From Bacteroidia bacterium (GTDB lineage: Bacteria; Bacteroidota; Bacteroidia; Bacteroidales; VadinHA17), in assembly GCA_026391475.1 (NCBI GenBank), contig JAPLED010000059.1, forward strand, positions 1-53,537: DNA of 53,537 bases. The letters run 5' to 3'. This document shows positions 22,390-53,395 of the stretch, piece by piece (the stretch's first letter is position 1; every line of letters begins with the position of its first letter). A model generated the notes under the pieces. It was given only the letters and a program-made list of their open reading frames with translations. It made no database searches and was not told the origin of the DNA. Position numbers and translations under genes: made by a program.

Positions 22390-22417
22390 TTTTTACTTTT
22401 TACTTTTTACTTTTTAC
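22390..22417. repeat. Heptad tandem array (TTTTTAC)x4 overlapping CDS stop
   Basis: Four perfect 7-bp units. The stop codon of the minus-strand CDS (22400-22402, tta) lies inside the array. Confidence 0.9.
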
Positions 22418-25210
22418 TATAAAATTCTTACTGTCAATATCCTTAACACATCTAAATCCGACAGTTGCACTCCTGTCGAATCCGGGTGAGACCATAAGTA
22501 ATATTTGTGTTTTGTCGAGCGACTGAGGTCCTCCCTGAATGTACCACCAGCTGGATTCAGGTTTGTAATAACTTCCACCTCTGATTACAATAAAATAATT
22601 TGTGCCATTAGAATACATATCATTGGTCATCTGCCAGACATTACCTATCATGTCAATTGCTCCATAAGGACTTTGCCCTTTTGAGAATACATCAACCGGA
22701 GTTGGCCTGTCGAAAGAATTGTTGCAGTAAGTCCCATGAAATTCATCACCCCATGGCCATTTGCGCTTATCCAATCCCTGGGCGGCAAGCTGCCATTCAG
22801 CCTGGGTAGGAAGTCGCTTTTCTGCCCATTTTGTATAAGCCATTATATCTTCATAGCTTACATAAACCATAGGGTATTTATCCTGACCCTGTCTGAATAT
22901 TCCCGATTGCCAATGCCTTAAATATCTGGTAGTATCTGTAGGCCTGTATCCTGAATTAATCAGGAATTTATAATACTGTGCATTGGTAACAGGATATTTA
23001 TCGATCAGGAAACTGTCAATTTTAATGGTATTGCCGTTCACCTCCGGATAAGGTATAAAATCCTCGCTGGTTGTGACATTAAATGAAAAGAGAGCACCTG
23101 GTATCAGAACCATCTCAGAAGGAATATTTGAAGATTTCTTAGTAGGTATTACCTTGCTGATGACCCATGGTTTTCCGCCTTTCAGAATTAAAACATTCTC
23201 GTCTTTTAATCTCTTATTTTCAATAAGTTGCAAAACAATCTTGCCTTCATAGTAACCAAAAATGTCTTTTACTCTTATTGTTGTGTCATTTAATATTCTG
23301 AATTCTTTATGCAGAGTCTGATATGAAGGGTTTCCTTTCCATATAACTAATCTTCCATTTCCTGTGCGGTTTATTTTTATTGAATCGCCAATCAATCCTG
23401 ATTTGATTAAATCCGGCAATTCAGCTATACAATCGACTGATCCTTCCCTGCGTGTTCCTGAAAATGATGACTGCCAGCCAACGGCATTTGCTGTGATAAA
23501 AGATGTTCCTTTCTCAATAACGGGCGATAGGTTTTCGTGGTTCCATAACGAGACGTAGTGTTTTCCTTCACTATTATCAACTTTAAAAAGTTTTCCATTG
23601 ATTCCATCTGGTCTCATGTTTAGAACTGAATAAACGGTTTTATCACCTGATTTCCAACGGTTCACGAAAACGCTATCAAGTGTTGTTTGAATCATCGGGG
23701 TCCAGTCGTTATCTAGGAATGCATCATTATTTTGCCTCAGTATGAATGTAGTAAGAGCGAGGTAATCAAGATCATCCCTGTAGTTTTCATCTCTGCCTCC
23801 GGGACGGAACATATTCAACTCGGTTCCATAGCCGTTAAAGAATGCAATTGCGATTTCGCGGTGAATAAGATTCTCTCCCACATCGCAAACCCTGAAAATA
23901 GAAAAATCGGGTTTAATTAACTTATTAAGATTCAGTTCCGGGCTATAATAAATGGCATTATGAACGCGTCCTGAAATGATTCCCGGCATATCTTTGGGTA
24001 TTGCCATCCCCTCGGAGTACATAACTACTCCTTTTCTTACGCTATCGGCAGCAGCCTGCAGTTCAAAACTTGAACTGCCCCTGGTATCAAGTACAACTCC
24101 GTCAGCTTCAGTTTCAGCAATTAGTTGCGCCATCCCTTTATAATGATCTTCTTTCCTTGTACTGTTATCCCATGGATTATAGGCTATGAAGAACCTGGTA
24201 TTCGACTGTCGCGACATTCTTGCGAAGTTCCGGAGTTGTTCAGTTCCTCCGGGAAGGTCTCTGTATAAATCCCATTGGTTGCGCTGGTCAAGGCCGAGTC
24301 GTGGCCATGTTGGCCAAATTCCAAATACATCAATATTTCCGAAAAGCTCTATTCCCTTTTTTATAACTTCAGCATAATTATATTTTCCGGTAAGCCTGTC
24401 ATAGAATTCTCTGTCCCATGCCATCTGAAGAATGATCAGGTAACTCTCTTTTATCCATGCCAGATCCTCTCTTTCAAACAGGGAGTTGTCAAAGTTTTCA
24501 AGGTCATACAAATACCTGTCTCTGAACATCATACGAAGTCCATTTTGCCATTCCCCTTTGAAAACATCAGCATATACAGAATAAATGACTTTTGCTTTTG
24601 GTGGTAATGCTGTTTCGTACCTTTGCCTCTGCCCTCCTTCAATCTTAAGGCGACGCGCAATAGCGCATACCGAGAACTCCTTTCCGGCAATAAAAGAGGA
24701 ATACCCCAGCTCCCATGCATTATCGGGAAGAATAACTCTAACCGGTCGAAAACCCGGACGGAATAACCATGCACGGGCAAGATCCCAGGGACCTCTTCCA
24801 GTTATATACACCGAACTATTATCTTCACCAAACGGGACCACATTACTTATTGAAACAGTATCGTTACCTGTATTTTCGAAAACAATTTCACCTTTCCATC
24901 CTGAAGCAGAAGATCCTGATATTGTAGTATTTACTTTGAGATAATTTTCATATATCTGTGAGTATTTGTTGATGGCCTTTATCGCATCAACATCACCTGA
25001 ATTGTAAGATTTTTCATTTAGAAGAAAGCTAAACAGAGGTTTGCATTTGGGCAGGATAATAACACTGCTATCGGATAGAACAACATTATCAGTATTCAAA
25101 CCCGATTTATTAGCAATCACAACATCATGAAGCACCTGTGAATAGCCTGAATATGAATACAATAACAAAACCAAAATAAAGAGACCGATTGTCTTTCCTT
25201 TAATATTCAT
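22400..25210 (-). CDS. Glycoside-hydrolase-like (TIM-barrel-like) protein with C-terminal FGE-sulfatase/SUMF1 domain
   Basis: 936 aa; signal peptide. Middle region contains FIAYNPWDNSTRKEDHYKGMAQLIAETEADGVVLDTRGSS. C-terminal IDKYPVTNAQYYKFL...RLPTQAEWQLAAQG...YGAIDMIGNVWQMTND...VIRGGSY...VGFRCVKD is FGE-sulfatase-like. Confidence 0.8.
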   Translation of the reverse strand: MNIKGKTIGLFILVLLLYSYSGYSQVLHDVVIANKSGLNTDNVVLSDSSVIILPKCKPLFSFLLNEKSYNSGDVDAIKAINKYSQIYENYLKVNTTISGSSASGWKGEIVFENTGNDTVSISNVVPFGEDNSSVYITGRGPWDLARAWLFRPGFRPVRVILPDNAWELGYSSFIAGKEFSVCAIARRLKIEGGQRQRYETALPPKAKVIYSVYADVFKGEWQNGLRMMFRDRYLYDLENFDNSLFEREDLAWIKESYLIILQMAWDREFYDRLTGKYNYAEVIKKGIELFGNIDVFGIWPTWPRLGLDQRNQWDLYRDLPGGTEQLRNFARMSRQSNTRFFIAYNPWDNSTRKEDHYKGMAQLIAETEADGVVLDTRGSSSFELQAAADSVRKGVVMYSEGMAIPKDMPGIISGRVHNAIYYSPELNLNKLIKPDFSIFRVCDVGENLIHREIAIAFFNGYGTELNMFRPGGRDENYRDDLDYLALTTFILRQNNDAFLDNDWTPMIQTTLDSVFVNRWKSGDKTVYSVLNMRPDGINGKLFKVDNSEGKHYVSLWNHENLSPVIEKGTSFITANAVGWQSSFSGTRREGSVDCIAELPDLIKSGLIGDSIKINRTGNGRLVIWKGNPSYQTLHKEFRILNDTTIRVKDIFGYYEGKIVLQLIENKRLKDENVLILKGGKPWVISKVIPTKKSSNIPSEMVLIPGALFSFNVTTSEDFIPYPEVNGNTIKIDSFLIDKYPVTNAQYYKFLINSGYRPTDTTRYLRHWQSGIFRQGQDKYPMVYVSYEDIMAYTKWAEKRLPTQAEWQLAAQGLDKRKWPWGDEFHGTYCNNSFDRPTPVDVFSKGQSPYGAIDMIGNVWQMTNDMYSNGTNYFIVIRGGSYYKPESSWWYIQGGPQSLDKTQILLMVSPGFDRSATVGFRCVKDIDSKNFIVKSKK

Positions 25211-25258
25211 TGATGAAATTAATGTTCCTCGTGTCAGAGTTATAAATTTCTTATCTTT

Positions 25259-26026
25259 TCATTCATTACACAAAAAACTCAACCCGTCGTAGGCAAGCAT
25301 AATTTCCGGAGGCAGCTCTTTTGAAACTTCAGCATGATAGCCCATCTGGTGGCTTATATGAGTAATAAATGCCTTTTTAGGTGAAATCTCTCTTATAAAA
25401 TCGACAGCTTCTCTTAAGCTAAAGTGAGAAATGTGTTTTTCTTTTCTGAGGGCATTAATAACCAAGTACTTAACACCAAACAACTTCTCTTTACTCTCTT
25501 CCGGTATATAATTTGCATCAGTTATATATGCAAAATTTCCAACTCTGAAACCGTAAACAGGGAGACGGTAATGGAACACTCGGACAGGAATTATCTGTAT
25601 ACCTTTAATATTGAAACTGTGTTCAGGAATGGAATTAAGTCTCATTTTGGGAATTCCGGGATATTGGTATTCAGAAAACACATAGGAATATTCTTTCTTA
25701 ATCGCCTTCTGAACTCTATCCTCTGCAAAAATATCGATGGCATCCTGACTTTTGTAATTGAAAGCTCTGACATCATCCATACCTGAAATATGATCCTTAT
25801 GTTCATGTGTCAGAATAATTGAATCGAGTTTGGTCACATGTTCCCTGAGCATCTGCTGACGGAAGTCCGGACCAGCGTCAAAAAGTAAGGTAGTCTCGTC
25901 TGTCTCAAGGAGAAGAGAAGGTCTTAGTCTCTTGTCATGCTGATCGGCAGAAAGGCAGATATTGCAATCACAGGCTATTACCGGCACGCCCTGTGATGTG
26001 CCTGTACCAAGAAAAGTTATTTTCAC
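25259..26026 (-). CDS. MBL-fold metallo-hydrolase (PhnP/lipoate-metabolism-like)
   Basis: 255 aa; FLGTGTSQGVPVIACDCNIC, ILTHEHKDHISGMDDVR, ITHISHQMGYH. Confidence 0.9.
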   Translation of the reverse strand: MKITFLGTGTSQGVPVIACDCNICLSADQHDKRLRPSLLLETDETTLLFDAGPDFRQQMLREHVTKLDSIILTHEHKDHISGMDDVRAFNYKSQDAIDIFAEDRVQKAIKKEYSYVFSEYQYPGIPKMRLNSIPEHSFNIKGIQIIPVRVFHYRLPVYGFRVGNFAYITDANYIPEESKEKLFGVKYLVINALRKEKHISHFSLREAVDFIREISPKKAFITHISHQMGYHAEVSKELPPEIMLAYDGLSFLCNE

Positions 26027-26148
26027 AATAAAAATATTTCATGACAAACCTATATTAAAAATCAATAAAAGGCAACAGATGAGGTTATTTTTGTTATTAT
26101 AGTCAGGAGTTGTTTATTTGTTATATTTGAGTTAATAAACTTGATAAC

Positions 26149-26847
26149 ATGACCGGCAGGATTTATCTCATACCTGTGACTTTAGGAGGAGATGATTTTT
26201 TAAAAGTTATCCCCGAAAAAGTAATCAGTCTGACCAGGCACCTGCGATTCTTCATTGTTGAAGATATCCGGAGTGCCAGGAGGTTTTTAAGACTCATTGA
26301 CAAAGAGTTTCCAATTAATGATACGGTATTCTTTGAATTAAATGAACATACCGGGGAAACCGATATAGCACATTATCTTGAACCAGTGCTGAAGGGATCA
26401 GATATCGGGATCATGAGTGAGGCCGGCTTGCCTGGTATTGCAGATCCGGGTGCCCGGATAATCGCCCTTGCGCATAAGAAAAAGATCACAGTAATTCCAC
26501 TATCAGGACCATCTTCAATTCTTCTGGCTCTTATCTCTTCCGGACTTAACGGACAGAGTTTTACGTTCAACGGGTATCTTCCGGTTAAACCTGCGGAACG
26601 ATCAGCAAAACTCAGGGACCTGGAAAAGAATGCTGGTTGTGGGTATGCACAAATCTTTATGGAGACACCCTACCGGAACCAGAAGATGCTGGAATCAATA
26701 ATTGAAACGTGTCATAATGATACAAAGCTTTGCATAGCAGCCGATATTACTCTGCCAACAGAATCGATAAGGACAATGAGAATATCAGAATGGAAAAAAG
26801 ATTTACCATTCTTAAATGACAAGCTTGTGGTTTTTGTAATGCAGTAA
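26149..26847 (+). CDS. rsmI: SAM-dependent methyltransferase (RsmI/tetrapyrrole methylase family)
   Basis: 232 aa; GRIYLIPVTLGG, FFIVEDIRSARRFLR, GIMSEAGLPGIADPGARIIALAHKK, PLSGPSSILLALISSGLNGQSFTFNGYLPV. Confidence 0.8.
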   Translation: MTGRIYLIPVTLGGDDFLKVIPEKVISLTRHLRFFIVEDIRSARRFLRLIDKEFPINDTVFFELNEHTGETDIAHYLEPVLKGSDIGIMSEAGLPGIADPGARIIALAHKKKITVIPLSGPSSILLALISSGLNGQSFTFNGYLPVKPAERSAKLRDLEKNAGCGYAQIFMETPYRNQKMLESIIETCHNDTKLCIAADITLPTESIRTMRISEWKKDLPFLNDKLVVFVMQ

Positions 26848-26849
26848 AT

Positions 26850-27395
26850 CTATTTTACTGGTCCGGGTTTTACACGAACAAGTTCAACATCATATAACAG
26901 AGGAGTATAACCATCTATAATATAATAACCAGACGGCCCATACGCAAGTTTCGATGGTATAAGTAACATAGCTTTACCGCCTTCTCTCATTAAAGTTATT
27001 CCTTCATCAAATCCGGAAATGAGCCATCCCTCATCAACAGGGAAGGCAAGTGTATCGGTTTTTCCGACGTTGGTATCAAAAACAGTTCCGTCAAGGAACT
27101 TTCCTGTATATTTTACGTAGGCAGTATCGTGTTTAACAGGTATACGCCCTGATCCTGCTACTATCTCCAGATAATACAAGCCGCTGGGCTTCAAAACAAA
27201 ATTCAGGTCACTATTACTGTTAAGGTACTCTTGAATCTTTGCACTTTCTTCTTTTTCATATTTTTTGGCAGGATCGCAGGATACAAGCGATACCATTAAA
27301 ACTACTGTTATAAAGAGAAGAATTGTTTGAATATTCCTTTTTATCATTGTTTTAAGTTTTGGATAATATGAATTAAAAATTACTGCAAAAATCAT
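26850..27395 (-). CDS. FKBP-type peptidyl-prolyl cis-trans isomerase lipoprotein
   Basis: 181 aa; SLVSCDPAKKYEKEE lipobox, AYVKYTGKFLDGTVFDTN, LMREGGKAMLLIPSKLAYG. Confidence 0.9.
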   Translation of the reverse strand: MIFAVIFNSYYPKLKTMIKRNIQTILLFITVVLMVSLVSCDPAKKYEKEESAKIQEYLNSNSDLNFVLKPSGLYYLEIVAGSGRIPVKHDTAYVKYTGKFLDGTVFDTNVGKTDTLAFPVDEGWLISGFDEGITLMREGGKAMLLIPSKLAYGPSGYYIIDGYTPLLYDVELVRVKPGPVK

Positions 27396-27922: not shown

Positions 27923-27926
27923 ATGA

Positions 27927-29512: not shown

Positions 29513-31261
29513 ATGGATTCAAACTTTTTCAAAGACTTTTCCGATAAGAAAGAACTGGAAAAGTACTCATCGGCCTTCACCCTTTCGGATATGGAAATCT
29601 TTATATTCCCCGATCTGTTCTATCCGCTTATTTTTGCAGACATAATGTCTCCTCAATTATGGATATGGAGGGACGATCCATGGTTTAAGGATATAGAAAA
29701 GAAGAGCTTCACAAACAAAGCCAACAGGATAAAACAGTATATTATTCAGAACTATGTTTTCAATCTTGATCTCTCAACCTGGGGACTTACCTCGAAAAGC
29801 GCTGAAATTGCAAGGTTCAGTGATTTTTTCGACATGGAGATGCTTAAACAGTCAAATGCACTTTTCGGGTATGAAGGAGACAAATACTATTTCGATATTG
29901 ATATAAGGAAACATTTTGGTCTCGATAAATTTGATTCTGACATAATTCCTTACTGGAAGACTGAAACAATTGAGGCTATGACAGCCTTCAGGTATAAAGA
30001 TAATTTCACATCAGGAGCTGGAGAATGTGTTTCACTATCAGCCCTTTATGCAGCCGCAATGTTTGTTGTTGGAAGAGTGCCTCTTGAGAAAATTTTTCTG
30101 ATTGCCACCCCGCTTCATTCGCAGAATTTCATAATTGAAAAAGACGGATTAATAACCAATAACCGCAGAATTGTCACAAAGAATATGTGGTATAATGGAA
30201 CTTCACTGTCTGAAAAAGCCAGAAGGGCTATGGAGAACGAGAAGGTAACTATAGTTTCGCATATTTCAGGTTATATTCATACTCTGTACAATGAAGCAAC
30301 AATTGACAGGGAAGCATATGACCTGTTTTCAGTTAAGCTTAAGGAGTTTCTTGTAACAGATTTAACCAAACTCATCTTCATCAATTTTCTTCGTTTTAAA
30401 TCCAAATATAAGGCTCTGTTCCAGTATCGCTGTGAGTGTTCTGGTAAGCAGAGGTACATTTCTCTTGAAAAATTGTTTGAATATGAACACACCAGTAAGT
30501 TCAATGTATCGGCTGAGACACGTGCTTCTTTGGTAAAAGAAATTGAAGGAGATGAATTTCATCTTAGTCCCATACAGGGAAAAATAATGCTTAATGATGT
30601 TGAGGAGATTCTGGAGACTCATTCCGGAAAGAGTCTGAAAGAAATTGAAAATGAATTTACTAAAATTATCGGGATAGTTTCTGAAGAGATTATTCATGAA
30701 ATGTTCACGGAACTGAAAGATTTTATTTTCATTGATCCTGAAATACCTGATTTTAATAAGAGTTTTATCAGCACCGATAAGCTAAACATAATGGCTGAAG
30801 AGAGCCGCGAAAAGATCATTAATACAGTTGCCAGACATTCCGGCAAGTCAGAACTGGCACTTCTGTCACTCTATGTATACAGGCAGATGGATAAAATTGA
30901 CTGGCTTCCATTCATTAAAGCTGCAATTGAGCGAAACCCTGTTTGCTTCACGGATCTGAACGGAAAGAGCACATCAGAAGTTTATAATATCCTTAAAAAC
31001 ATGTCTGACGATTCAATTTATGACGGGAAGAGGCTGGCATTACCCGATGAGGTGTGGAATTTCAGGCGCGGGGATGGAATTGAAAAAGCTCTTTTACTTG
31101 CTGACTTTCTTCATCATAAGGATAGTTCATCATCAGTTTCAATCGAGATAGAAAATAAAAAAGTCACCTTATCGTTGAACGGGGGTGATTTTCATTTCAC
31201 CTCACATAAAAGTTTCAGAAAATCGATTCATATAACCGGAACGGATTATACAATTATCTGA
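29513..31261 (+). CDS. Hypothetical protein with transglutaminase-like segments
   Basis: 582 aa; FTSGAGECVSLSALYAAAMFVVGRVPLEKIFLIATPLHSQNFIIEKDG has a Cys...His arrangement as in transglutaminase-like folds. A second WNFRRGDGIEKALLLADFLHHKD segment lacks the Cys. Confidence 0.5.
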   Translation: MDSNFFKDFSDKKELEKYSSAFTLSDMEIFIFPDLFYPLIFADIMSPQLWIWRDDPWFKDIEKKSFTNKANRIKQYIIQNYVFNLDLSTWGLTSKSAEIARFSDFFDMEMLKQSNALFGYEGDKYYFDIDIRKHFGLDKFDSDIIPYWKTETIEAMTAFRYKDNFTSGAGECVSLSALYAAAMFVVGRVPLEKIFLIATPLHSQNFIIEKDGLITNNRRIVTKNMWYNGTSLSEKARRAMENEKVTIVSHISGYIHTLYNEATIDREAYDLFSVKLKEFLVTDLTKLIFINFLRFKSKYKALFQYRCECSGKQRYISLEKLFEYEHTSKFNVSAETRASLVKEIEGDEFHLSPIQGKIMLNDVEEILETHSGKSLKEIENEFTKIIGIVSEEIIHEMFTELKDFIFIDPEIPDFNKSFISTDKLNIMAEESREKIINTVARHSGKSELALLSLYVYRQMDKIDWLPFIKAAIERNPVCFTDLNGKSTSEVYNILKNMSDDSIYDGKRLALPDEVWNFRRGDGIEKALLLADFLHHKDSSSSVSIEIENKKVTLSLNGGDFHFTSHKSFRKSIHITGTDYTII

Positions 31262-31269
31262 TTGTAAGA

Positions 31270-31297
31270 GCTCGTAGCTCATAGCTCGTAGCTCGTA
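31270..31297. repeat. Heptad tandem array (GCTCGTA/GCTCATA)x4
   Basis: gctcgta gctcata gctcgta gctcgta. Confidence 0.9.
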
Positions 31298-31300
31298 GAA

Positions 31301-31353
31301 AGACATCAAGACATCAAGACAGCAAGACAACAAGACAGTAAGACAATTAGACA
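31301..31353. repeat. Octad tandem array AGACAnnn x6.6
   Basis: agacatca agacatca agacagca agacaaca agacagta agacaatt agaca; ends 4 bp before a CDS stop codon. Confidence 0.9.
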
Positions 31354-31357: not shown

Positions 31358-31648
31358 TTAACGCAAAACAATATCTTTGATCACTTCAGTGCCGGCTTTC
31401 TCGTTAAGTTTTTCTTTGAGTTCTTCCCTGAGCATGAGCAATTCATTTCTGACAACGGATGAATTCAGATGGACAAATAGAACATGATCTTTAATATAGA
31501 TTTTTGATGTACGGGAACTAATTGCCTTTCCGACAGTTTCTTCCCAGGAGTTAATGACTCCGACCTCGCTGAGTTTTCCATCGAGATTCATCTCCTTTAT
31601 GTAATCCTTAATCGCCTCGGCAAGTGATATTGTTTTACTTCGTCTCAT
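31358..31648 (-). CDS. DUF721 domain protein (DciA-like)
   Basis: 96 aa; SEVGVINSWEETVGKAISSRTSKIYIKDHVLFVHLNSSVVRNEL; overlaps recF start. Confidence 0.85.
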   Translation of the reverse strand: MRRSKTISLAEAIKDYIKEMNLDGKLSEVGVINSWEETVGKAISSRTSKIYIKDHVLFVHLNSSVVRNELLMLREELKEKLNEKAGTEVIKDIVLR

Positions 31649-32863: not shown

Positions 32864-33054
32864 GGGAGATGCTGCATAGCCCAGAGGGGTTTCACTCCCA
32901 TTACGAAAAGCATCTTAGGAAGATCCCACGAGAGTGCAGTTCTTTGACATTCACCCCCTTATATTCCCCCCAAGGGGGGAAATATTTCTGCAAATAAATG
33001 TAATTCAACTAAATAGAACAGAATTTTCTCCCCTTTTGGGGAGATGCCGCATAG
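32864..33054. repeat. Degenerate C/G-rich palindromic repeat family, two related copies
   Basis: gggagatgctgcatag (32864-32879) and gggagatgccgcatag (33039-33054) match 15/16. Hairpins ttcccccc(32964-32971)/ggggggaa(32974-32981) and tctcccc(33027-33033)/ggggaga(33038-33044). Confidence 0.65.
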
Positions 33055-33128
33055 GGCAAAATTGATCAGAATATTGGTTATATAGAAACACTTGCATCAT
33101 CATTTATCGAAAATCTGCATTTGTAATT

Positions 33129-33197
33129 AACGCTTACACCTAGTACTTCATGCTGTGCAATGCGTGTCACATGAAGTCCTGTTTATTAGCGGGCGTT
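33129..33197. repeat. attC-like imperfect palindrome downstream of the EEP gene
   Basis: Outer arms aacgc/gcgtt (33129-33133, 33193-33197); inner arms agtacttcatg (33142-33152) / catgaagtcct (33170-33180), 10/11 complementary; 17-nt central loop. Confidence 0.6.
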
Positions 33198-33975
33198 CTT
33201 ATTTTCCGGTCAAAAAGCAAAGTCAATTATTAGTGGTGAATGGTCGCTATGTTCTATCCAATTTTCATAAGTCCCGATTCCTATATTTTGAACTTTGTCA
33301 ATGATGTCAGCTGATGCAAAACAGTAATCAATGTGGTATGACTTATTTTGTTTACGTTGAAGAAAAAAAGTAGGATGTTTTTCTTTTCCCTGCTCAAACT
33401 CAAAGTGTCGGTGATAGATGCTGTTAATGTTATTATCGGCTAATTTACGAACAACATCTGAATGGTTTCCAACCCTGTCTTTATAGTCCCAAATTTTGTT
33501 GCTATTGAAGTCACCAATCAAAATTGTAGAGCTACCCAACAAGTCAGCATAGTGATTAATTGCAAGCCAAATTTGTCCAATATACCGAGCTTGATAATTT
33601 TCCTTGTTGTTCATTGCCCAAATTGCAAAAAGTATAAATGTTTGTCCTTGTCCGGTTACACGAAAAGGTAAAATGTATCTGAACTCAGGGTTGAAGGTTG
33701 GTAATAGTTCAAATTTGTAGTCAGAATATGAATAAATACCTATTCCTTTATGAATATTGTCACCATGCCAGTAAAGGTTATTTGGTCGTTTAGTTGCGGA
33801 ATTTAAATCTAATTTGTCGGGATGCTCAGATTCTTGGACTACTAAAATGTCAGGATTGTAGGACAAAATACTGGCTGCCTTTTTTCTAAATGCTCCTTGA
33901 CAGTTCCACGTTATAAGTCTCATCTATTATCAATTATTTGCGGATTTATTGTGTCGCCCATAGAATGCCCGCTAA
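33186..33975. repeat. 14-bp inverted repeat pair flanking the EEP gene
   Basis: ttagcgggcgttct (33186-33199) versus agaatgcccgctaa (33962-33975); 13/14 complementary. Confidence 0.85.
33210..33923 (-). CDS. Endonuclease/exonuclease/phosphatase (EEP) family protein
   Basis: 237 aa; MRLITWNCQGAFRKKA, ILVVQESE, ILIGDFNSNKIWD, HIDYCFASADI, EHSDHSPLIIDF. Confidence 0.9.
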   Translation of the reverse strand: MRLITWNCQGAFRKKAASILSYNPDILVVQESEHPDKLDLNSATKRPNNLYWHGDNIHKGIGIYSYSDYKFELLPTFNPEFRYILPFRVTGQGQTFILFAIWAMNNKENYQARYIGQIWLAINHYADLLGSSTILIGDFNSNKIWDYKDRVGNHSDVVRKLADNNINSIYHRHFEFEQGKEKHPTFFLQRKQNKSYHIDYCFASADIIDKVQNIGIGTYENWIEHSDHSPLIIDFAF

Positions 33976-34017
33976 CATCTCAATAATCGCAACCAGTTAA
34001 GTTTATTTGAGCCTTAG
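33972..34017. repeat. Second attC-like imperfect hairpin with a bulged base
   Basis: ctaa (33972-33975) and ctcaataa (33979-33986) pair with ttatttgag (34003-34011) and ttag (34014-34017); one extrahelical T on the + strand; 16-nt loop. Confidence 0.5.
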
Positions 34018-34116
34018 GTGAAACCCGCACTTACAAAATATGAAGTTTATAAAATTAAGTCAGTAACAGACTTTTTTATTTAAAATGAGTAACAGAAATT
34101 AATAAAGAACAATTAA

Positions 34117-34220
34117 GGGCTAAAGCCCAATCTTTCAGATCGTTGAATAACCCCGGACTTAAGTCCGGGGTTATTGATAATGAGACGTTTGCGGACTTTA
34201 GTCCAAAATCTGTATTTTGG
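34117..34220. repeat. REP-like cluster of palindromes
   Basis: gggctaaagccc (34117-34128); perfect 30-bp palindrome aataaccccggacttaagtccggggttatt (34146-34175); ggactttagtcc (34193-34204); ccaaaat-ctgt-attttgg (34203-34220). Confidence 0.8.
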
Positions 34221-35686: not shown

Positions 35687-37435
35687 TTATCTGAGCACCC
35701 TCCGCACAAATGCCACCGTAAAGTAGGACATCATAAATACTCCAATAAATCCCTCAAAACCGGAGATTATCCTGCTCAATCCTATTGGGTAGACATCCCC
35801 GTAACCAATTGTAAAGAAGGTAATTGCGCTATGGTAGAATGACTGAAGAAGTGCAGAAAGATTGTCTGGATTATTTACTGACGATACCGTTTTGCCAAGA
35901 CCTGAAAGATCGGTCAGGAAATAGAGTGTTCCAAAGAAGATCCAGAATATAACAACACTAAAAAGAACCCGACCCGGAGAAGTTGCATAAAGTCCGATCT
36001 TGTCAAATACAAGCCATTTAAAGCCATGAGGAATATAGCTTGCTATTTTCGTAATCCCGCCCTTTTCTTTCTGCTCGGTAAGCCATGACTTTGCCTCATA
36101 ACGCTTGAACATTATATATGCTTCGTCTTCATCCTCGTATTTACCGGTTCCGCTGAAATTTTCTTTCAGAATTCTGAACTGTTCGGCTTTTTGTCTTAAA
36201 GTTGTTACTTCCTGGTTAACAATGATCTCATTGCATTTGTTTTGCCTCCAATTGATATATATCTTCCCGGGCAGTCTCATGCCGGACATGTCCAATGTTT
36301 TAATCTCAACAGGAAAATCATAAGGTTCCAGGTCAATAATATCGCGAACAATAGTATCAGAGATATTAAGGAGTTCAGCTTTAGCGAGGCGAAGATCAAA
36401 GTAGTGATCAAGATGACATGATTTAAGTGAGATCGTATGGAACTTTGACTCATAAAAACTAACATCACCATCGCCAAAATCAGTTCTTTCAAAACTTATA
36501 TCTGTATCGCCCATCTCCATGAGATTGAAGTTTTTAGGGCCATACCCCATCTCTGCCTTTTTGAACTGAATCTTACCCGCTTTGCAGGAAGCACCTTCAA
36601 AATTAACTTCCCCGTTCCCAAAGACTGAACGGTTAAAATTTATTCTTCCCGAACCAAAATCAACTGTTCTGAAGTCAACCCGGCTATTACCGAATTCAGT
36701 CCTTTCAAACATTATTTCACAATCTCCAAAAACTGAATAATGAAAATCCACCTTTCCTCCTGCAATCCTGGTAACCTTGAAATTAAAACGACCACTGTTA
36801 AAGCGGGTATTTATAAAAAGTAATTCGCCGCTGTTGAATTCGGTATTTGCAAAACTGACCTCTCCGTTTCCGAACCGGATATCCTGGAAATCCTTAATCC
36901 CATCTTTTACAATGGCATTCTTAAACATGAAATCGCCTTCGCTGAAGACAGACCCGGTAAACTCAACATTCCCGTCTCTGAATAGTGTATTTGAAAAGAT
37001 TATATTCCCTTTACCAAAAACAGACCCGGTAAAAAGAACTTTTCCTTTGGCAAAGTGGCTTCCATCGAAACTGACTTCACCATCTGAAAAGGAAGAGTAT
37101 GTAAAATCGGTACATACTTTAGATTCAAAGAATGCATTTTTTGCAGAAAAACCTTTGATCGGAACCAGTTCTTTCTTATCAATACCATTATGTCTTCTAA
37201 AGGATGCCAGAGAGAATTCCGGGATGTAATAGTTATCAAGAATGAGATCTTTTCCTTCCTTAATCAGGTAATAAACCAGGTTAATATCAACGGCACCAAA
37301 TAATTCAGAGCCAATCTCTTCACCTTTCTCATTATAAAATGTAACTATTGCGGTTCGCGGACAGGTCCTGCCGTCATCAGCAATGAACTTGACGTTTTTA
37401 ACCTCTATCCGGTAGTTTGTATAATCTGTAACCAT
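35687..37435 (-). CDS. Two-TM potassium channel with N-terminal 12-residue-repeat solenoid
   Basis: 582 aa; C-terminal TM-pore-TM with SAITFFTIGYGDVYPIG filter; 18 tandem dodecapeptides, residues 116-331. Confidence 0.85.
   Translation of the reverse strand: MVTDYTNYRIEVKNVKFIADDGRTCPRTAIVTFYNEKGEEIGSELFGAVDINLVYYLIKEGKDLILDNYYIPEFSLASFRRHNGIDKKELVPIKGFSAKNAFFESKVCTDFTYSSFSDGEVSFDGSHFAKGKVLFTGSVFGKGNIIFSNTLFRDGNVEFTGSVFSEGDFMFKNAIVKDGIKDFQDIRFGNGEVSFANTEFNSGELLFINTRFNSGRFNFKVTRIAGGKVDFHYSVFGDCEIMFERTEFGNSRVDFRTVDFGSGRINFNRSVFGNGEVNFEGASCKAGKIQFKKAEMGYGPKNFNLMEMGDTDISFERTDFGDGDVSFYESKFHTISLKSCHLDHYFDLRLAKAELLNISDTIVRDIIDLEPYDFPVEIKTLDMSGMRLPGKIYINWRQNKCNEIIVNQEVTTLRQKAEQFRILKENFSGTGKYEDEDEAYIMFKRYEAKSWLTEQKEKGGITKIASYIPHGFKWLVFDKIGLYATSPGRVLFSVVIFWIFFGTLYFLTDLSGLGKTVSSVNNPDNLSALLQSFYHSAITFFTIGYGDVYPIGLSRIISGFEGFIGVFMMSYFTVAFVRRVLR
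36443..37090 (-). repeat. 18 x 36-bp (12-aa) coding repeat
   Basis: Translated units FSDGEVSFDGSH / FAKGKVLFTGSV / FGKGNIIFSNTL / ... / FGDGDVSFYESK with no indel between units. Confidence 0.9.
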
Positions 37436-40413: not shown

Positions 40414-40455
40414 ACGAATTACGAATTACGAATTATTAATTTCTAATTACTAATT
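40414..40455. repeat. Heptad tandem array, six degenerate units
   Basis: acgaatt acgaatt acgaatt attaatt tctaatt actaatt. The stop codon of the CDS at 40443 (cta) lies inside. Confidence 0.85.
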
Positions 40456-41420
40456 TCTACATACTTCTTCCCCTGCCAGGTATCAAGTTCTTCGAGGCGC
40501 TTTTCGATAAGATTAACAATCTGGTCGGTGCGTTTTTTGCCCCATCCCTCCCCTGTCAGAAAGCGTGGAGGTGCTTCACCTGTGAAGCGCTCAACGACAA
40601 ATGCAGGATTTAGTCTTTCCAGAAAACTGATAAAGAAATCGAGATACTCCTCCCATGTAAAGAGTTCAAAATCATCAGGATTATTCTGAAACTCCTTTTC
40701 CATTGTAGTTCCTTTAATTACCTGAAGCTGATGAAATTTCACGGTTGTCAGAGGCAGCCCGGAGATAACAGAAGCCTGGTTAAGCATCTCTTCTCTTGTT
40801 TCTCCGGGCAGTCCGAAAATGAAATGAGCGCCTGTGTTTATTCCAAGTGAAGCAGTTCTTTCTACAGCCCTGACTGCATCTTCAAATGAATGTCCGCGGT
40901 TGATCCTCTCCAGTGTTTTGTTGTAACACGACTCAATTCCATATTCAACAGCAAGATAACATCGCTGAGAAAGATCCTTTAAATATGCGAGTTTTTCTTC
41001 ATCAATACAATCAGGTCTTGTGCCGATAATAAGACCAACCACACCCGGATAACTCAATGCCTCTTCATAGCGCTTTTTTAATGTCTCCAATGGAGCATAT
41101 GTGTTCGAGTATGCCTGAAAATATGCGAGGTAAGAGACAGCCTCACTGTATCTCCATTTGTGAAATTCAATCCCTTCCTTTATCTGTTGAGATACTGATT
41201 TTGATGGGAGACAATATGAAGGATTAAAAGCATCGTTGTTACAATAAGTGCAGCCACCGGATCCTTTTGTTCCATCGCGGTTGGGACATGTAAATCCGGC
41301 ATCAATTGAAACCTTCTGAACCCTTGCGCCATAGATTCTCCTGAAATAATTGGAATAGGCGTTGAATCTGCGTTCATGACCCCATTGGTACACTTTTTTT
41401 TCTATTTGAATTGTTGTCAT
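40443..41420 (-). CDS. TIGR01212 family (YhcC-like) radical SAM protein
   Basis: 325 aa; KVSIDAGFTCPNRDGTKGSGGCTYCNN, SYLAYFQAYSNTYAPLETLK, HFIFGLPGETREEMLNQ, VKFHQLQVIKGT. Confidence 0.92.
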   Translation of the reverse strand: MTTIQIEKKVYQWGHERRFNAYSNYFRRIYGARVQKVSIDAGFTCPNRDGTKGSGGCTYCNNDAFNPSYCLPSKSVSQQIKEGIEFHKWRYSEAVSYLAYFQAYSNTYAPLETLKKRYEEALSYPGVVGLIIGTRPDCIDEEKLAYLKDLSQRCYLAVEYGIESCYNKTLERINRGHSFEDAVRAVERTASLGINTGAHFIFGLPGETREEMLNQASVISGLPLTTVKFHQLQVIKGTTMEKEFQNNPDDFELFTWEEYLDFFISFLERLNPAFVVERFTGEAPPRFLTGEGWGKKRTDQIVNLIEKRLEELDTWQGKKYVEISN

Positions 41421-45872: not shown

Positions 45873-47456
45873 CTATTTGAAAAGCAGGTTTACATTCGGA
45901 TCGGGAATTATCTCAACATTATTCATTGATGGCACCATGATTTTTGTAACTCTCTCTTTAACAATAACATTTACAATTTTCTCTCCTGAAGCATCTTTGA
46001 TCAACAGTTCCAGGTTGAATTCAAACAGGTGCTCCTGTTTCTGCTCGATGTACACATCTATCATTCCCTTTTTCTTTCCGTTCTCGTGCCATATCCTGAG
46101 TTCTGGTTGTCCTGCTGTATAGAGCCATTGTTGAAAGAATTTGCCAAGGTTCCTTCCACTGACCTCCTCCATAACATTCTTAAAATCTTCAGTGAGAGCA
46201 TTGGAATTATAAAAGCGTTCATAATATAATCGCAATCCTTTCATAAAAACCTCGTCTCCAAGATCATGTCTGAGCATATGCAGAACCCACGCTCCCTTTT
46301 GATAAGAATTTACACTTAGCAGATCCATCAGGTTTGTTATTGTAGTATCGATTACTGGTTTTGCATGTTTTTCATAGTATTTTAAAACCTTTGCCCGAGC
46401 TGATGTCATATCGGATTCAAGTCTGTCTTTTCCCTGTAACGATTCAAAATAGAGTGAAGTCATATATGTTGCAAAACCCTCACTCAACCATATATGATGC
46501 CAGTCAGTCTCTGTGATACAGTCACCAAACCATTGATGAGCTATCTCGTGGGCTATAAGTCCTTCTGCCCTGCCCAGGCCTGACACGGAGTTTTCGGAAT
46601 AAAAAATAGTACCCGCATTCTCAAGACCACCATAAATTGTTTTTGACTGAACATTTGCCAGTTTCTTGTAGGGATATTGTCCTATAATCCTGCTGTAATA
46701 TTCCAGCGGTCTGATTGCAACTGAATAATCGGAAAAGCCCTCTTTACGATTTTCAGGATAGACCCACGACCATACAGGTATATTATTTACATTTCCTGCT
46801 AATTGTACTGCAAATTCAGCAGCACCGAAAGTCATCACCTTGATTGCCAGAGGGACCGTTTCACTCCAATGAGTAAGTGTCATATTACCAACCAGATCAG
46901 ACTCCTCCACGAGTGTGCCACTTGCAATCACTTTGTACCTGTCGGGTGCTGTAATGATAAAATCGACGGAAGCCTTATCATAAGGATGATCGATACATGG
47001 GAGATAATTATGAGCTCTGTCTGGCCAGTGGTCGGCAAAAAAGGTACGGTTACCGAATTTGTTTTTCGAAATTATCAACCCATCAGCAGGAATCCCGTTG
47101 TACTCAATGACAAATTCCAGAGTATCATTCTGTTTGACAGGATTATCGAAAAAAACTAATAACCTCTCCTCTTCCTGTTCCCATTTAACATCTTTTGGAC
47201 CTGAGTGTACACTTGTTACACCCATCCCCTTTCCCTCTCTGTTTATTCCTGTCAGATCAAAAGAAATTGAATCAGCTTCATTAATGAATTTTATTTTAAT
47301 TAAAGCTCTTCCTTCAATTCTGTCAGTTGAATCATTAATTGTCAGAGCAAACTCATAATGAAGCACATCGGCATTGAAATTACGCGGGTATCCATCATGG
47401 GCTGAGACAAACGGTAATAAAATGAAAAGAAGATAAAAACAAAATACTTTTCTCAT
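45873..47456 (-). CDS. M1 family metallopeptidase
   Basis: 527 aa; GGLENAGTIFYSE, HEIAHQWFGDCITETDWHHIWLSEGFATY. Confidence 0.96.
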   Translation of the reverse strand: MRKVFCFYLLFILLPFVSAHDGYPRNFNADVLHYEFALTINDSTDRIEGRALIKIKFINEADSISFDLTGINREGKGMGVTSVHSGPKDVKWEQEEERLLVFFDNPVKQNDTLEFVIEYNGIPADGLIISKNKFGNRTFFADHWPDRAHNYLPCIDHPYDKASVDFIITAPDRYKVIASGTLVEESDLVGNMTLTHWSETVPLAIKVMTFGAAEFAVQLAGNVNNIPVWSWVYPENRKEGFSDYSVAIRPLEYYSRIIGQYPYKKLANVQSKTIYGGLENAGTIFYSENSVSGLGRAEGLIAHEIAHQWFGDCITETDWHHIWLSEGFATYMTSLYFESLQGKDRLESDMTSARAKVLKYYEKHAKPVIDTTITNLMDLLSVNSYQKGAWVLHMLRHDLGDEVFMKGLRLYYERFYNSNALTEDFKNVMEEVSGRNLGKFFQQWLYTAGQPELRIWHENGKKKGMIDVYIEQKQEHLFEFNLELLIKDASGEKIVNVIVKERVTKIMVPSMNNVEIIPDPNVNLLFK

Positions 47457-48352: not shown

Positions 48353-48485
48353 ACTCAGAATTTGAGTCGCAAAAGTAGTAAAAGCAGGATAACCTGCAAA
48401 TTCAAACCAGAATAATCCACTATAAGGAAACCTGACTATAGAAGACCAATTCATGAATTATGGATATATTTGAAAAAAATCTAAA

Positions 48486-49187
48486 ATGCAAAAGATATCA
48501 GTAATCAGTGGCGGTGCCAGCGGACTGGGATTGGAAATTGCTGAACTCCTGGTTAAATCGGGGAAAAACGTACTTATTCTTGGCCGTACCAATGAGAAAC
48601 TCGCATTAGCTTCAGCCAGGCTTAAGAAATCTGAGAAACACAATTTAGCCGAATCGTTGATCTGCAATATTGGGAAGGAAGAAGACATCAAAAAAGTTGG
48701 TGGGTATCTGACAAAAAATATGCTTTCAGTTGAATATCTTTTCAATAATGCCGGCATGGGTCTCTTCACAAAAGCAGATACATCAACATCGGCTATGATT
48801 GACACTGTTTTTGAGGCCAACCTTAAGGGGATGATCCTACTGACATCTGAAATTCTAAGAATAACTTCCGAAGAAGAAGAACTTACCATAGTTAATATTA
48901 TGTCAACCTCTGCCCTGCTCGGAAGAGCGGAAGAGACAATCTATTGTGCCGCAAAATGGGGAGCCAGAGGTTATACCGAGGCGCTCAGAACTGAACTGAA
49001 AGGGACAAAACGGAATATTATTGCAGTATATCCTGGTGGTATGAGAACAGATTTCTGGAACATTATTGGTCAGAACCGTGATATAAGCAGCTTTATGGAT
49101 CCGGCAGAAGTGGCAACGAAAATTGTAAATGCTGTTATCGTCGCCGAAAAGATGCTTGTTACGGATATTACCATTAACAGAAAGTAA
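48486..49187 (+). CDS. SDR family oxidoreductase
   Basis: 233 aa; SVISGGASGLGLEIAE, YLFNNAGMG, YCAAKWGARGYTEALR, AVYPGGMRTDF. Confidence 0.92.
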   Translation: MQKISVISGGASGLGLEIAELLVKSGKNVLILGRTNEKLALASARLKKSEKHNLAESLICNIGKEEDIKKVGGYLTKNMLSVEYLFNNAGMGLFTKADTSTSAMIDTVFEANLKGMILLTSEILRITSEEEELTIVNIMSTSALLGRAEETIYCAAKWGARGYTEALRTELKGTKRNIIAVYPGGMRTDFWNIIGQNRDISSFMDPAEVATKIVNAVIVAEKMLVTDITINRK

Positions 49188-49217
49188 GGCGACAGGCAGC
49201 AGGCAACAGGCGACAGG
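49188..49217. repeat. Heptad tandem array GGCGACA-type x4
   Basis: ggcgaca ggcagca ggcaaca ggcgaca gg, starting on the first base after the SDR stop codon. Confidence 0.9.
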
Positions 49218-49224
49218 TAAAAAA

Positions 49225-49256
49225 AGACTGCAAGACAATCAGACATTAAGACAACC
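49225..49256. repeat. Octad array AGACAnnn-type x4
   Basis: agactgca agacaatc agacatta agacaacc. It contains the stop codon of nspC (49246-49248) and shares unit and trailing CCTGTT with the array at 31301-31353. Confidence 0.8.
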
Positions 49257-50385
49257 TGTTCTTATAGTCTTCGTAACCAAATTCCCTGATTAATTTGAAT
49301 TTGCCATCAATCGTCCAGATGCCGATAGAAGGATGGTGCACACCGTTAAATGTGGTGGTTTTCACCATCGTATAATGGATCATATCCCGGAAGATCATCC
49401 TGTCACCTGGTTTAAGCTCCCTTTCAAATGACCATTCACCCATAACATCGCCCGATAAACATGAGTTACCTCCTATCTTGTAAGTTGGTTTCCCGGGAAC
49501 CGGGTCAGTTGCACCGGTAATTTTAGGTTTGTAGGGCATTTCAAGGCAATCAGGCATGTGGGCAATAAAAGAGACATCCAGGATAGCTGTTTTAATGCCT
49601 TGATTTTCAACTATATCTTCAACTGTTGAAACTAATTCTCCTGTTTCCCATGCAAAAGCACTTCCCGGTTCAAGTATGACATGAAGACCGGATTTCTCAC
49701 GGAATCTTTTAAGAATTTTTATAAGGTGAACAACATCATAATCTTTTCTGGTCATCAGATGTCCGCCACCCATATTGATCCACTTGAGCTGAGAAAAAAA
49801 CTTTCCGAATTTAACCTCAACAGTCTCCAGGACTTTTTCGAGAGCATAAGAGTCAGATTCAAAAAGAACATGAAAATGAAGCCCTTCGATTCCTTCAGGC
49901 AAACCATCCTTCAGATCATCTGCAATCACACCCAGTCTGGACCCGGGAGAGCATGGATTATATAGCCCGTGACTTACCTCTGAATATTCAGGATTGATTC
50001 TTAATCCGGTTGAAACTTTCTTCGAATATTTTTGCAATTCAGTCGAATATTTTCTGAACTGGTTCAATGAATTAAAAGTGACATGAGAACTGTACTTAAG
50101 AATTGATTGAAACTCACTCTGCTTATATACAGGAGAATATGTATGAGCAGGAGAACCTATCTCATCGGAACACAGACGTGCTTCGTCCACAGAACTTGCA
50201 GCAGCGCCTGAAATATATTCCCTGAGAATTGGAAAAACTCCCCACATGGCAAATCCCTTGAATGCAAGGATTATCTCAGCACCGGATTCTATTGATACCC
50301 GATTGATAAGAGAAAGGTTCTTACGGAATCTTTCTTCATCGATTACGTAACAGGGAGATGGTAATATGTTGTAGTTAATTGGCAA
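49246..50385 (-). CDS. nspC: Carboxynorspermidine decarboxylase
   Basis: 379 aa; SPCYVIDEERFRKNL, LRINPEYSEVSHGLYNPCSPGSRLGV, GLHFHVLFESDSYAL, WINMGGGHLMTRKDYD. Confidence 0.95.
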   Translation of the reverse strand: MPINYNILPSPCYVIDEERFRKNLSLINRVSIESGAEIILAFKGFAMWGVFPILREYISGAAASSVDEARLCSDEIGSPAHTYSPVYKQSEFQSILKYSSHVTFNSLNQFRKYSTELQKYSKKVSTGLRINPEYSEVSHGLYNPCSPGSRLGVIADDLKDGLPEGIEGLHFHVLFESDSYALEKVLETVEVKFGKFFSQLKWINMGGGHLMTRKDYDVVHLIKILKRFREKSGLHVILEPGSAFAWETGELVSTVEDIVENQGIKTAILDVSFIAHMPDCLEMPYKPKITGATDPVPGKPTYKIGGNSCLSGDVMGEWSFERELKPGDRMIFRDMIHYTMVKTTTFNGVHHPSIGIWTIDGKFKLIREFGYEDYKNRLS

Positions 50386-50399
50386 GTATTATAGTATTT

Positions 50400-50471
50400 G
50401 GCGACAGGCGTCAGGCATCAGGGGTATCTCAGGGTAATCACCTGTTGCCCGTAGCCTGTCGCCTGTAGCCC
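50400..50471. repeat. Two heptad arrays in inverted orientation
   Basis: ggcgaca ggcgtca ggcatca (50400-50420) and cctgttg cccgtag cctgtcg cctgtag ccc (50441-50471). Perfect 10-bp inverted repeat ggcgacaggc (50400-50409) / gcctgtcgcc (50454-50463). Confidence 0.85.
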
Positions 50472-50473
50472 TT

Positions 50474-51667
50474 TTATAATTCCAGATCCACATCATGCAG
50501 TTCCACCCACGGCAATCCCAGTCTGTTAAGCTCAGCCATAAACGGATCGGGATCAAAATCTTCCACATTGAAGACACCGGGTTTTTTCCAGATGCCTTTC
50601 AGATACATCATAGCGCCAATTGCAGCAGGTACTCCGGTTGTGTAGCTGACTCCCTGTGTTCCGGTCTCTGCATATGCTGCCTCATGACTGCAATTATTGT
50701 AAACATAATATGTTTTTTCCCTGCCGTTCTTTATTCCTTTAATCCGGCATCCGATGGATGTCTGACCTTTGTAGTTTTCCCCCAGTTCTCCCGGATCGGG
50801 GAGTACGGCTTTCAGGAACCGGATTGGGATTATCTCCCTCCCTTCAAACATGACAGGTTCAATGCTTGCCATTCCAATATTTTGAATTACACGCAGATGG
50901 GTAAGATATTCCTGTCCGAATGTCATCCAGAACCTCGCCCGCTTAAGAGTCGGATAATTCTTTACAAGTGATTCCAGTTCCTCGTGATATATTACATAGG
51001 ATTCCTTTGGGCCAATTCCGGGATAATTCAATGGTTTATGTATTTCATGGGGTTTGGTCATGATCCATTTACCGTTTTCCCAGTATTTGCCTTTTTGCGT
51101 AACCTCCCTGATATTGATTTCGGGATTAAAATTTGTGGCGAATGGTTTGCCATGATCTCCGGCGTTACAATCAACGATATCCAGGTAATGCAATTCATCA
51201 AAATGATGTTTTGCGGCATACGCTGTGTAAATTGAGGTCACCCCGGGGTCGAAGCCGCAACCAAGAATTGCCGTAATCCCAGCCTTCTTATACCTGTCGA
51301 TATATGCCCATTGCCAGCTGTATTCAAATTTAGCCTCTTCAAGCGGTTCATAGTTTGCCGTATCAAGGTATGCAACACCTGTTTCAAGACAGGCATCCAT
51401 AATATGAAGATCCTGGTAAGGCAAAGCAACATTTACTACGATATCAGGCTTAAATGATCTGATCAGTTTAACCAGTTGCGGAACATTATCAGCATCAATC
51501 TGTACTGTTTTTATCTGGTCTTTCCCAATTTTTTCAGCAATTGCATCACACTTGGATTTTGTACGGCTGGCTAACATAATTTCTGTAAAAACCTCCGGCA
51601 GAGAAGCCATTTTATGAACTACAACCGTTCCGACTCCACCAGCACCGATAACTAATACTTTCCCCAT
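50474..51667 (-). CDS. Saccharopine dehydrogenase family protein (carboxynorspermidine synthase-like)
   Basis: 397 aa; MGKVLVIGAGGVGTVVVHKMA, ILGCGFDPGVTSIYTAYAAKH; adjacent to nspC. Confidence 0.92.
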   Translation of the reverse strand: MGKVLVIGAGGVGTVVVHKMASLPEVFTEIMLASRTKSKCDAIAEKIGKDQIKTVQIDADNVPQLVKLIRSFKPDIVVNVALPYQDLHIMDACLETGVAYLDTANYEPLEEAKFEYSWQWAYIDRYKKAGITAILGCGFDPGVTSIYTAYAAKHHFDELHYLDIVDCNAGDHGKPFATNFNPEINIREVTQKGKYWENGKWIMTKPHEIHKPLNYPGIGPKESYVIYHEELESLVKNYPTLKRARFWMTFGQEYLTHLRVIQNIGMASIEPVMFEGREIIPIRFLKAVLPDPGELGENYKGQTSIGCRIKGIKNGREKTYYVYNNCSHEAAYAETGTQGVSYTTGVPAAIGAMMYLKGIWKKPGVFNVEDFDPDPFMAELNRLGLPWVELHDVDLEL

Positions 51668-51903
51668 ATATTCAATAATATTAATAGGTTAGTCAAATAG
51701 CATGCAAATATTCTGATGATATAAAAATATTAAAACCGCATCAGTGTACCATCAACTTAACTGATCCAAATATAAGATATAAAAATGACCAATCAATGAA
51801 CTTTTATCATACAAAATTGTAATGAAAAGCTTCCCTTTTAATTGAAAACAGAACAATACTATTTCTGATTATATTTGTATCCTGAAAATTCCGGAACCTG
51901 AGT

Positions 51904-53349
51904 ATGAAGCTGATCAATCCTTTGTTAATTCTACGGATATTAAGTACCATTCTGCTGATAGAGACAATATCCTATTTTTTCTGTTTGCCTGTTGTATTTA
52001 TTTATAAAGAGTCTCCTTATCCATTTCTCTGGTCGGCTGCCATAACTATATTGATATCAGGAGTATTTTATTTTGTATCGAGAAAAGCTGATACAAAAAA
52101 ATTCAGCAACAGGGATGGATACCTGGCCGTTACCCTATCGTGGGTTGTCTTTTCATTATTAGGAGCTTTACCTTATCTGATAAGTGGTACTATCCCTTCA
52201 TTCATTGATGCATTTTTTGAATCAACTTCAGGCTTTTCCACAACAGGTTCTTCCATCCTGAAGGATGTTGAAATACTGCCCTACTCGATACTCTTCTGGC
52301 GAAGCCTTACCCACTGGATTGGTGGGATCGGGATCATAGTTCTGGTAATAATTATCCTCCCTTCCCTGAGGGTCACCGGTTACCAGTTATTCAGTCTTGA
52401 ATCATCTCTGAAAGAAAAGATTCACCCCAAAACCAAATCAATCGGATTCAGAATTTTGTTTATATACCTTGGACTTACCCTTGCCGAAATAGTATTGCTG
52501 AATATGGGTGAAATGAACCTTTTTGACAGTATTTGCCACTCTTTTGGTACGATTGCTACCGGAGGTTTTTCAACCAAGAATAACAGCTTGATGTTCTATT
52601 CGTCTTACAGTCAATATATTGTTATGATTTTCATGTTCCTGGCGGGTGTAAGCCAGGTTATTTATTACTATCTGATGAAATTTAACTTCAGGAAAATCAG
52701 GCAAAATGAAGAACTATGGTTCTATATTGCTGTTGCCGTAATGGCAGGTGCAATTGCTACAATTATTCTGCTTATTAACTCAACCAGGACATTTGAGGAA
52801 TCATTCCGCGATGGTTTTTTTCAGATTATTTCCATTATGACCTGCACCGGATTTGCCTCAGCCGATTATACCATCTGGCCTTTAACAGCTGTTCTGTTGA
52901 TCTTTCTTATGATGTTTTCAGGCGGAAGTACCGGTTCAACAAGCGGTGGTATTAAGATGGCGAGACATTTAATTGTACTGAAAAATATTAAGAATGCTTT
53001 TCTCAGACTTAATCACCCTAAATCTATTTCATCCTTAAAATTAAATGGGAAAAGCATCGCTGAAAATACCAACATCTCCATACTTTCATTTGTTGTTTTG
53101 TATCTGTTTCTTTTTGTAATTGGAACAATTATAGTAGTTGTAACAGGTGTTGATCCGGTTACCGCATCCAGTTCAGTGGCAACATGCATGGCAGGAATAG
53201 GACCGGGTCTTGGTACTGTTGGTCCAATGAGCAATTTTGCACATATGCCTGAGGCAAGCAAAGTAGTTCTTAGCCTGTTGATGATTATCGGGAGGCTGGA
53301 AATTATTACTGTCTTCACTATTTTTACCAGGACATTCTGGAAACTCTGA
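51904..53349 (+). CDS. trkH: TrkH family potassium uptake protein
   Basis: 481 aa, polytopic; FFESTSGFSTTGSSIL, FGTIATGGFSTKNNS, MTCTGFASADYTIWP, FSGGSTGSTSGGIKMAR. Confidence 0.95.
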   Translation: MKLINPLLILRILSTILLIETISYFFCLPVVFIYKESPYPFLWSAAITILISGVFYFVSRKADTKKFSNRDGYLAVTLSWVVFSLLGALPYLISGTIPSFIDAFFESTSGFSTTGSSILKDVEILPYSILFWRSLTHWIGGIGIIVLVIIILPSLRVTGYQLFSLESSLKEKIHPKTKSIGFRILFIYLGLTLAEIVLLNMGEMNLFDSICHSFGTIATGGFSTKNNSLMFYSSYSQYIVMIFMFLAGVSQVIYYYLMKFNFRKIRQNEELWFYIAVAVMAGAIATIILLINSTRTFEESFRDGFFQIISIMTCTGFASADYTIWPLTAVLLIFLMMFSGGSTGSTSGGIKMARHLIVLKNIKNAFLRLNHPKSISSLKLNGKSIAENTNISILSFVVLYLFLFVIGTIIVVVTGVDPVTASSSVATCMAGIGPGLGTVGPMSNFAHMPEASKVVLSLLMIIGRLEIITVFTIFTRTFWKL

Positions 53350-53360
53350 GCTTTGAGGGG

Positions 53361-53395
53361 ATGCTGGGTACTGGGTACTGGGTACTGGATGCTGG
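53361..53395. repeat. Heptad tandem array x5
   Basis: atgctgg gtactgg gtactgg gtactgg atgctgg, 11 bp after the trkH stop codon. Confidence 0.9.

Follow-up and report, generated by a model that had tools for sequence, protein, structure and literature searches.

Heptanucleotide tandem arrays of many words near stop codons in a Bacteroidales genome

What sets a repeat length of seven when the repeated word differs from gene to gene? The question is raised by a 53,537-nt contig of a Bacteroidales bacterium (JAPLED010000059.1 in assembly GCA_026391475.1; contig C128 in our set, hereafter the window), in which an earlier note described 7- and 8-bp tandem arrays at the 3' ends of genes. Tandem Repeats Finder (TRF), against which the window arrays were checked, recovers every array that the note listed (Table 1). 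Clustered regularly interspaced short palindromic repeats (CRISPR) have repeats of 23-47 bp and unique spacers; the window arrays, with units of 7-8 bp arranged head-to-tail and no spacers, are not of this kind. To place them in context, 1.478 Mb of the window's genome (G000, a draft assembly of 2.82 Mb in 133 contigs) was scanned in stretches, together with 0.46 Mb of a sister species (G147; 94.7% identity across the 143 kb compared). Judged by a single protein, the closest named records belong to uncultured Bacteroidales. We propose, at about an even chance of being right, that the arrays are hypermutable intergenic heptanucleotide short tandem repeats that change by 7-nt slippage or unequal exchange at transcribed gene ends and are filtered by selection.

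In G000, arrays with an autocorrelation score of at least 12 numbered 1, 1, 5, 81, 13, 13, 3, 3, 5 and 1 for periods 4 to 13, against 0-1 at any period in dinucleotide Markov shuffles, our control for chance; a signal at period 14 is chiefly a harmonic of 7. Array density in this genome is about 55 per million bases, and almost all of these arrays have a unit of 7 bases. The period-7 excess recurs in G147 (17 arrays, with at most 4 at other periods), in 80 named Bacteroidales loci (22, with at most 7) and in 500 kb of cyanobacterial plasmids (27, with at most 4 at any other period), although these plasmid records were partly selected for the word AATTACG and the figure of 27 is no unbiased rate. 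The earlier note held that period 7 dominates whatever the word, and the spectrum bears this out, arrays of 7 bp being far commoner than those of 5, 6 or 9 bp (81 against 1, 5 and 13). Units of 7 bp above both chance and other periods are a hallmark of heptanucleotide simple sequence repeats, known as short tandemly repeated repetitive sequences (STRR) or long simple sequence repeats (LSSR). Arrays of period 8-9 may also belong to this phenomenon.

The words themselves recur across loci: AAAAGNN, CAGGCNA, AAGTCNG, TAATTNN and ACGACNC were each met repeatedly, and an exact word is common to 123 pairs of arrays, where 16 are expected (maximum 42) when letters are shuffled within words. The description of the units as unrelated words thus holds inside the window and fails genome-wide. 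Within an array the word changes in phase at times, for example from AGTCGGA to AGTTGAA. A conserved core with two free positions per array, first hinted at by an AATTNNT search that was biased by its own pattern, was rejected (158 variable columns against 154 expected, not significant per array). Of 119 genomes sampled from the order, 53 contain AATTNNT arrays; four of these (G040, G094, G131 and G034) are densest by far, with 170-265 places each. Among plasmids, the window word AATTACG matched 22 records, 21 of them cyanobacterial and one from Bernardetia, where the match overlaps the lipB stop, and a reversed control word matched only Acinetobacter and Serratia. Along with the plasmid period-7 excess, these matches favor the analogy with cyanobacterial STRR that the earlier note had drawn. 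GTACTGG had no plasmid matches, AAGTCCG and GCTCGTA had non-cyanobacterial ones only, and the cyanobacterial overlap beyond AATTACG is weak, with one more exact word (AAGTCAG; p = 0.18 with the record-choosing words removed).

Placement relative to genes was assessed for 98 arrays of G000 and G147 combined, using a codon-usage gene caller written for this analysis and a null model in which every array is re-placed randomly within its own gap. As in STRR/LSSR, the arrays are mostly intergenic (89 of 98, with 3 coding). Thirty-five are no more than 5 bp from a stop codon, against 15.3 expected (95% range 11-20), and 15 lie within 20 bp of a start, against 21.8 (16-28). Between co-directional genes, 45 arrays are closer to the upstream stop and 10 to the downstream start, and density per kb is lowest in divergent gaps (about 0.32, compared with 0.52 in co-directional and 0.62 in convergent gaps). 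The bias toward stop codons suspected from the window is therefore genome-wide, but its extension to all arrays is not, since divergent gaps hold 19 of the 89 intergenic arrays.

About half of the G000 arrays begin within roughly 10 bases of a stop codon, with the purine-rich strand oriented as the gene is read. Among arrays within 20 bp of a stop, 42 of 48 have a purine content above one half in the sense of the ending gene, the mean purine fraction being 0.68 (A 0.45, G 0.23, C 0.15, T 0.16), against an average of 0.50 in post-stop sequence lacking arrays. The bias is absent between divergent genes (10:9), and for arrays in co-directional gaps that lie over 20 bp past the stop the split is 13:9. 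The test was prompted by these same data, and 8 of the 48 entries, some of them orthologs, come from G147; G000 alone gives 34:6. An independent set of other Bacteroidales loci replicates the rule at 15:2 (p = 0.002, one array being scored for both of its convergent genes). This strand rule suggests a role for transcription. None of the 48 stop-proximal arrays is capable of forming a G-quadruplex.

The same observations bear on a different account, in which the arrays would be functional elements of the 3' untranslated region (UTR), kept by selection to stabilize mRNA ends, to set 3' ends or to serve as sites for an RNA-binding protein whose footprint is 7 nt, perhaps of the cold-shock type. 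We regard this as possible though clearly the less probable course. Stop proximity and the sense-strand rule would be expected of such elements, and CspB binds heptamer repeats with one protein per heptamer (PMC4679880). Hairpins point the same way: in hairpin pairs of arrays the purine-rich arm is usually the stop-proximal one, and the structure 3' of the SacDH gene in the window (in sense, an arm GGCTACAGGCGACAGG.., a loop of 18 nt and the complementary arm CCTGATGCCTGACGCC) folds strongly, the segment 50395-50476 reaching -38.2 kcal/mol (z = -5.4). The earlier note had read inverted arrays here; the inversion stands, but rather than two unrelated arrays the region is one hairpin. Against a 3'-UTR function, folding of the remaining window arrays is not above that of shuffles, a regulatory role was not found for the Xanthomonas repeats (PMC4692102), and a period-7 array (score at least 9) occurs at the SacDH 3' end in only 2 of 17 congeners, with different words, a sporadic occurrence that fits neutral turnover. 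Other congeners have octamer or degenerate arrays by eye. Past the SacDH stop in three loci of the genus (L148, L150 and L143, the last near 2690), degenerate arrays or hairpins of 8-9 bp period occupy the site of the window's heptamers.

Turnover is seen directly between the sister species, where the copy-number comparison proposed in the earlier note yields differences of whole units, as in STRR/LSSR. At four sites with flanks 89-98% identical, the G147 sequence is shorter by exactly 21 bp, or 3 units (array at 49187), longer by 7 bp (one extra unit; hairpin at 50400), shorter by 7 bp (L182:18891) and longer by 14 bp (L042, near 11481). Words are also replaced: at L185:18869 CAGGCAA in one sister gives way to GACNCAC in G147, and the slot at 40414, TAATTNN in the window, holds TGGTTGTC octamers and CTTTTNN heptamers in G147. 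From these unit-step differences we infer that arrays could arise from short seeds and lengthen or shorten by whole 7-bp steps through strand slippage or unequal exchange, their words altering through point mutation and whole-array replacement. They build up just past stops, with the purine-rich strand mostly in the transcript, and, judging from their positions, would be purged elsewhere by promoters and coding sequence. The purine-sense bias might come from transcription, for example if hybrids of purine RNA with pyrimidine DNA left the other strand single and prone to slippage; alternatively, it might reflect selection on the transcript.

Several points weigh against this slippage account. 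The sisters show little recent divergence: their indels outside arrays form no distinct peak at 7 bp (6 have length 7, against 5 each of lengths 6 and 9), which argues against a general mutational bias toward 7 bp. From slippage alone one would expect no shared vocabulary, no inverted pairs with a conserved loop and no strand rule; the copy-number differences are unpolarized as to gain or loss; and, the assembly being a draft, replication strand is a possible confound of the strand rule. Nor does slippage or exchange account for the step length of 7 or for the strand rule.

A fixed length with varying sequence would also be accounted for if a transposon, inserting and excising repeatedly, left each unit behind as a target-site duplication of 7 bp. 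This reading, already disfavored, is very improbable in view of the recurring vocabulary, the hairpin pairs and the strand rule, and the sister comparison contains no element with flanking 7-bp duplications. Three genes of the window are absent from G147 at the same place (22400-25210, with a sulfatase-modifying-factor domain; 35687-37435, with an ion-channel domain; 45873-47456, an M1 peptidase); the replacement sequence is short or none, and target duplications are not obvious. Still harder to credit is that an RNA template and a reverse transcriptase write the units in the fashion of telomerase: a fixed unit length and recurring words would suit it, but the sole RVT_1 match in the genome is a degenerate stretch with 3 in-frame stops, which leaves the templating enzyme suggested in the earlier note unsupported.

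Array pairs present a further alternative. Same-family arrays at most 90 bp apart are inverted in 25 cases and direct in 8, whereas random array pairs are evenly split. In the ACGACNC family, hairpins whose arms are heptamers and whose loop (AAGGAAGAAA..TTGATTT) is conserved are dispersed over at least 8 loci in G000 and G147, and of 40 genomes from the genus, 3 contain the pattern. About ten arrays of CTTTTNN or TACTTCT type adjoin dispersed GC-rich palindromes, and five genes resembling Y1 transposases (RAYT/IS200-type) are present. The heptamers could accordingly belong to small dispersed elements, as arms or target sites of hairpins like miniature inverted-repeat transposable elements (MITE) or repetitive extragenic palindromes (REP), spread by transposition or gene conversion. 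We consider this unlikely. MITEs are conserved elements bounded by inverted repeats and target duplications; here a conserved loop is confined to ACGACNC and was not found in other hairpin families, and target duplications were not seen at gaps between G000 and G147; flanks with at least two matches elsewhere accompany only 24 of the 98 arrays, several of them orthologs. The exclusion of a single mobile element in the earlier note was too strong given the ACGACNC hairpin and the palindrome-adjoining arrays. Its exclusion of REP is sustained: in place of the conserved palindrome of about 35 bp that marks REP, the hairpins have heptamer arms and mostly unconserved loops. REP and bacterial interspersed mosaic elements (BIME) likewise form hairpins in transcribed 3' regions, but their palindromes are longer and conserved and lack arms of 7-bp tandem repeats. 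The GC-rich palindromes themselves fall into families CCCACCCCT..AGGAGGGG and GAACTCACCCCC..GAGGGGG, and are often flanked, on one side or both, by directly oriented heptamer arrays. Two gene-poor segments of the window (32937-33138 and 33970-34210) hold several more short dispersed repeats, with matches in many G147 contigs.

Table 1. Arrays, hairpins and palindromes of the window (p7 and p8, period 7 and 8), with dispersed loci of two element types
Feature	Position	Strand	Context
GC-rich palindrome, dispersed type (CCCACCCCT..CCTCCCAGGAGGGGATTTTA)	22336..22380	+	adjoins heptamer array; about 15 weak copies elsewhere in G147; also adjoins CTTTTNN arrays at other loci
p7 array, AAAAGTA type in sense of gene 22400-25210	22382..22418 (TRF 22381-22418)	-	overlaps the gene's stop; purine 0.86 in sense
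p7 array AGCTCGT	31269..31298	+	7 bp past stop of gene 29513-31261; purine-neutral (0.47)
p8 array AAGACANN	31300..31353	+	shares convergent gap with the AGCTCGT array; purine-rich in sense of gene 29513-31261; 4 bp from stop of DciA gene (31358-31648)
p7 array TAATTNN (AATTACG/AATTTCT)	40414..40459 (TRF p7/14 40414-40465)	-	overlaps stop of radical SAM gene 40443-41420; orientation flips internally
p7 array AGGCNNC	49187..49217	+	begins at stop of SDR gene 48486-49187
p8 array AAGACNNN	49232..49254	+	3' of heptamer array 49187..49217, in convergent gap with gene 49246-50385
Hairpin	50400..50470	-	3' of stop of SacDH gene 50474-51667; TRF p7 50400-50422 and inverted p7 50441-50470
p7 array GTACTGG	53359..53398	+	starts about 10-14 bp 3' of stop of TrkH gene 51904-53349
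ACGACNC hairpin loci	L009:5970, L029:2220, L046:657, L168:17204, L178:4259, L206:2943, L213:6601, L224:15862		
Dispersed GC-rich palindrome loci	window 22336-22380; L012:6898, L038:13360, L165:17461, L176:8900, L198:6029		

That tandem repeats in bacteria favor 7 bp has been on record since 1990-2007 with no explanation given, and heptamer repeats have been little studied. An excess of heptanucleotides in most repeat-rich prokaryote genomes, with polymerase contact length proposed as the cause of the number 7, is attributed to Mrazek 2007 as summarized in PMC4679880. Cyanobacterial STRR (Mazel 1990; Mrazek 2007, as summarized in PMC4679880 and PMC4692102) are similar in the dominance of period 7 and in the word AATTACG; the arrays described here differ in their several coexisting families, their strand rule and their turnover between sister species. 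In Nostoc, the P6b stem of the trnL intron is built of degenerate heptamers TDNGATT or NNTGAGT (PMC4476775, PMC3488679), likewise a degenerate-heptamer hairpin with copy-number changes and switching between two word classes, and NNTGAGT fits the CGTGAGT arm seen here; theirs, however, is a single locus within a group I intron of a tRNA gene. The TAACTGA direct repeats of Beggiatoaceae, Cyanobacteria and Bacteroidetes (PMC4679880) are heptamer arrays in the same phyla, but consist of one word, placed for the most part immediately before start codons, whereas our arrays lie near stops and TAACTGA is absent among the 43 words found. Closest in placement are the G-rich heptamers GGGAATC of Xanthomonas and GGGGA(C/T)T of Nostoc, which are stop-proximal, on the coding strand and at different genes in sister species (Rehm et al. 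2015, PMC4692102); they are a single quadruplex-forming word per genome, in contrast to the many families found here, where none of the 48 stop-proximal arrays is quadruplex-capable.

Earlier publications thus already cover the heptamer excess in bacteria and, in Xanthomonas and Nostoc, one G-rich heptamer placed in sense next to stops, and our literature search found no comparable description for Bacteroidales. New are the many-word Bacteroidales arrays, a purine-sense rule that involves no quadruplexes, and steps of 7n bp and word replacement seen directly between sister species. The high density and many words of this genome make word-specific (G-quadruplex) and length-specific explanations separable, and the purine-sense rule at stops is a new constraint that links the repeats to transcription or translation and is testable in any repeat-rich genome. 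Tentatively, a general process at translated gene ends might make or keep purine-rich, transcript-oriented arrays in 7-nt steps whatever the word, in at least Bacteroidota, Cyanobacteria and Xanthomonas, with the length set by a cellular machine such as the replisome, an RNA-DNA hybrid or an RNA-binding protein; the quadruplex explanation of the Xanthomonas and Nostoc heptamers would then be incidental.

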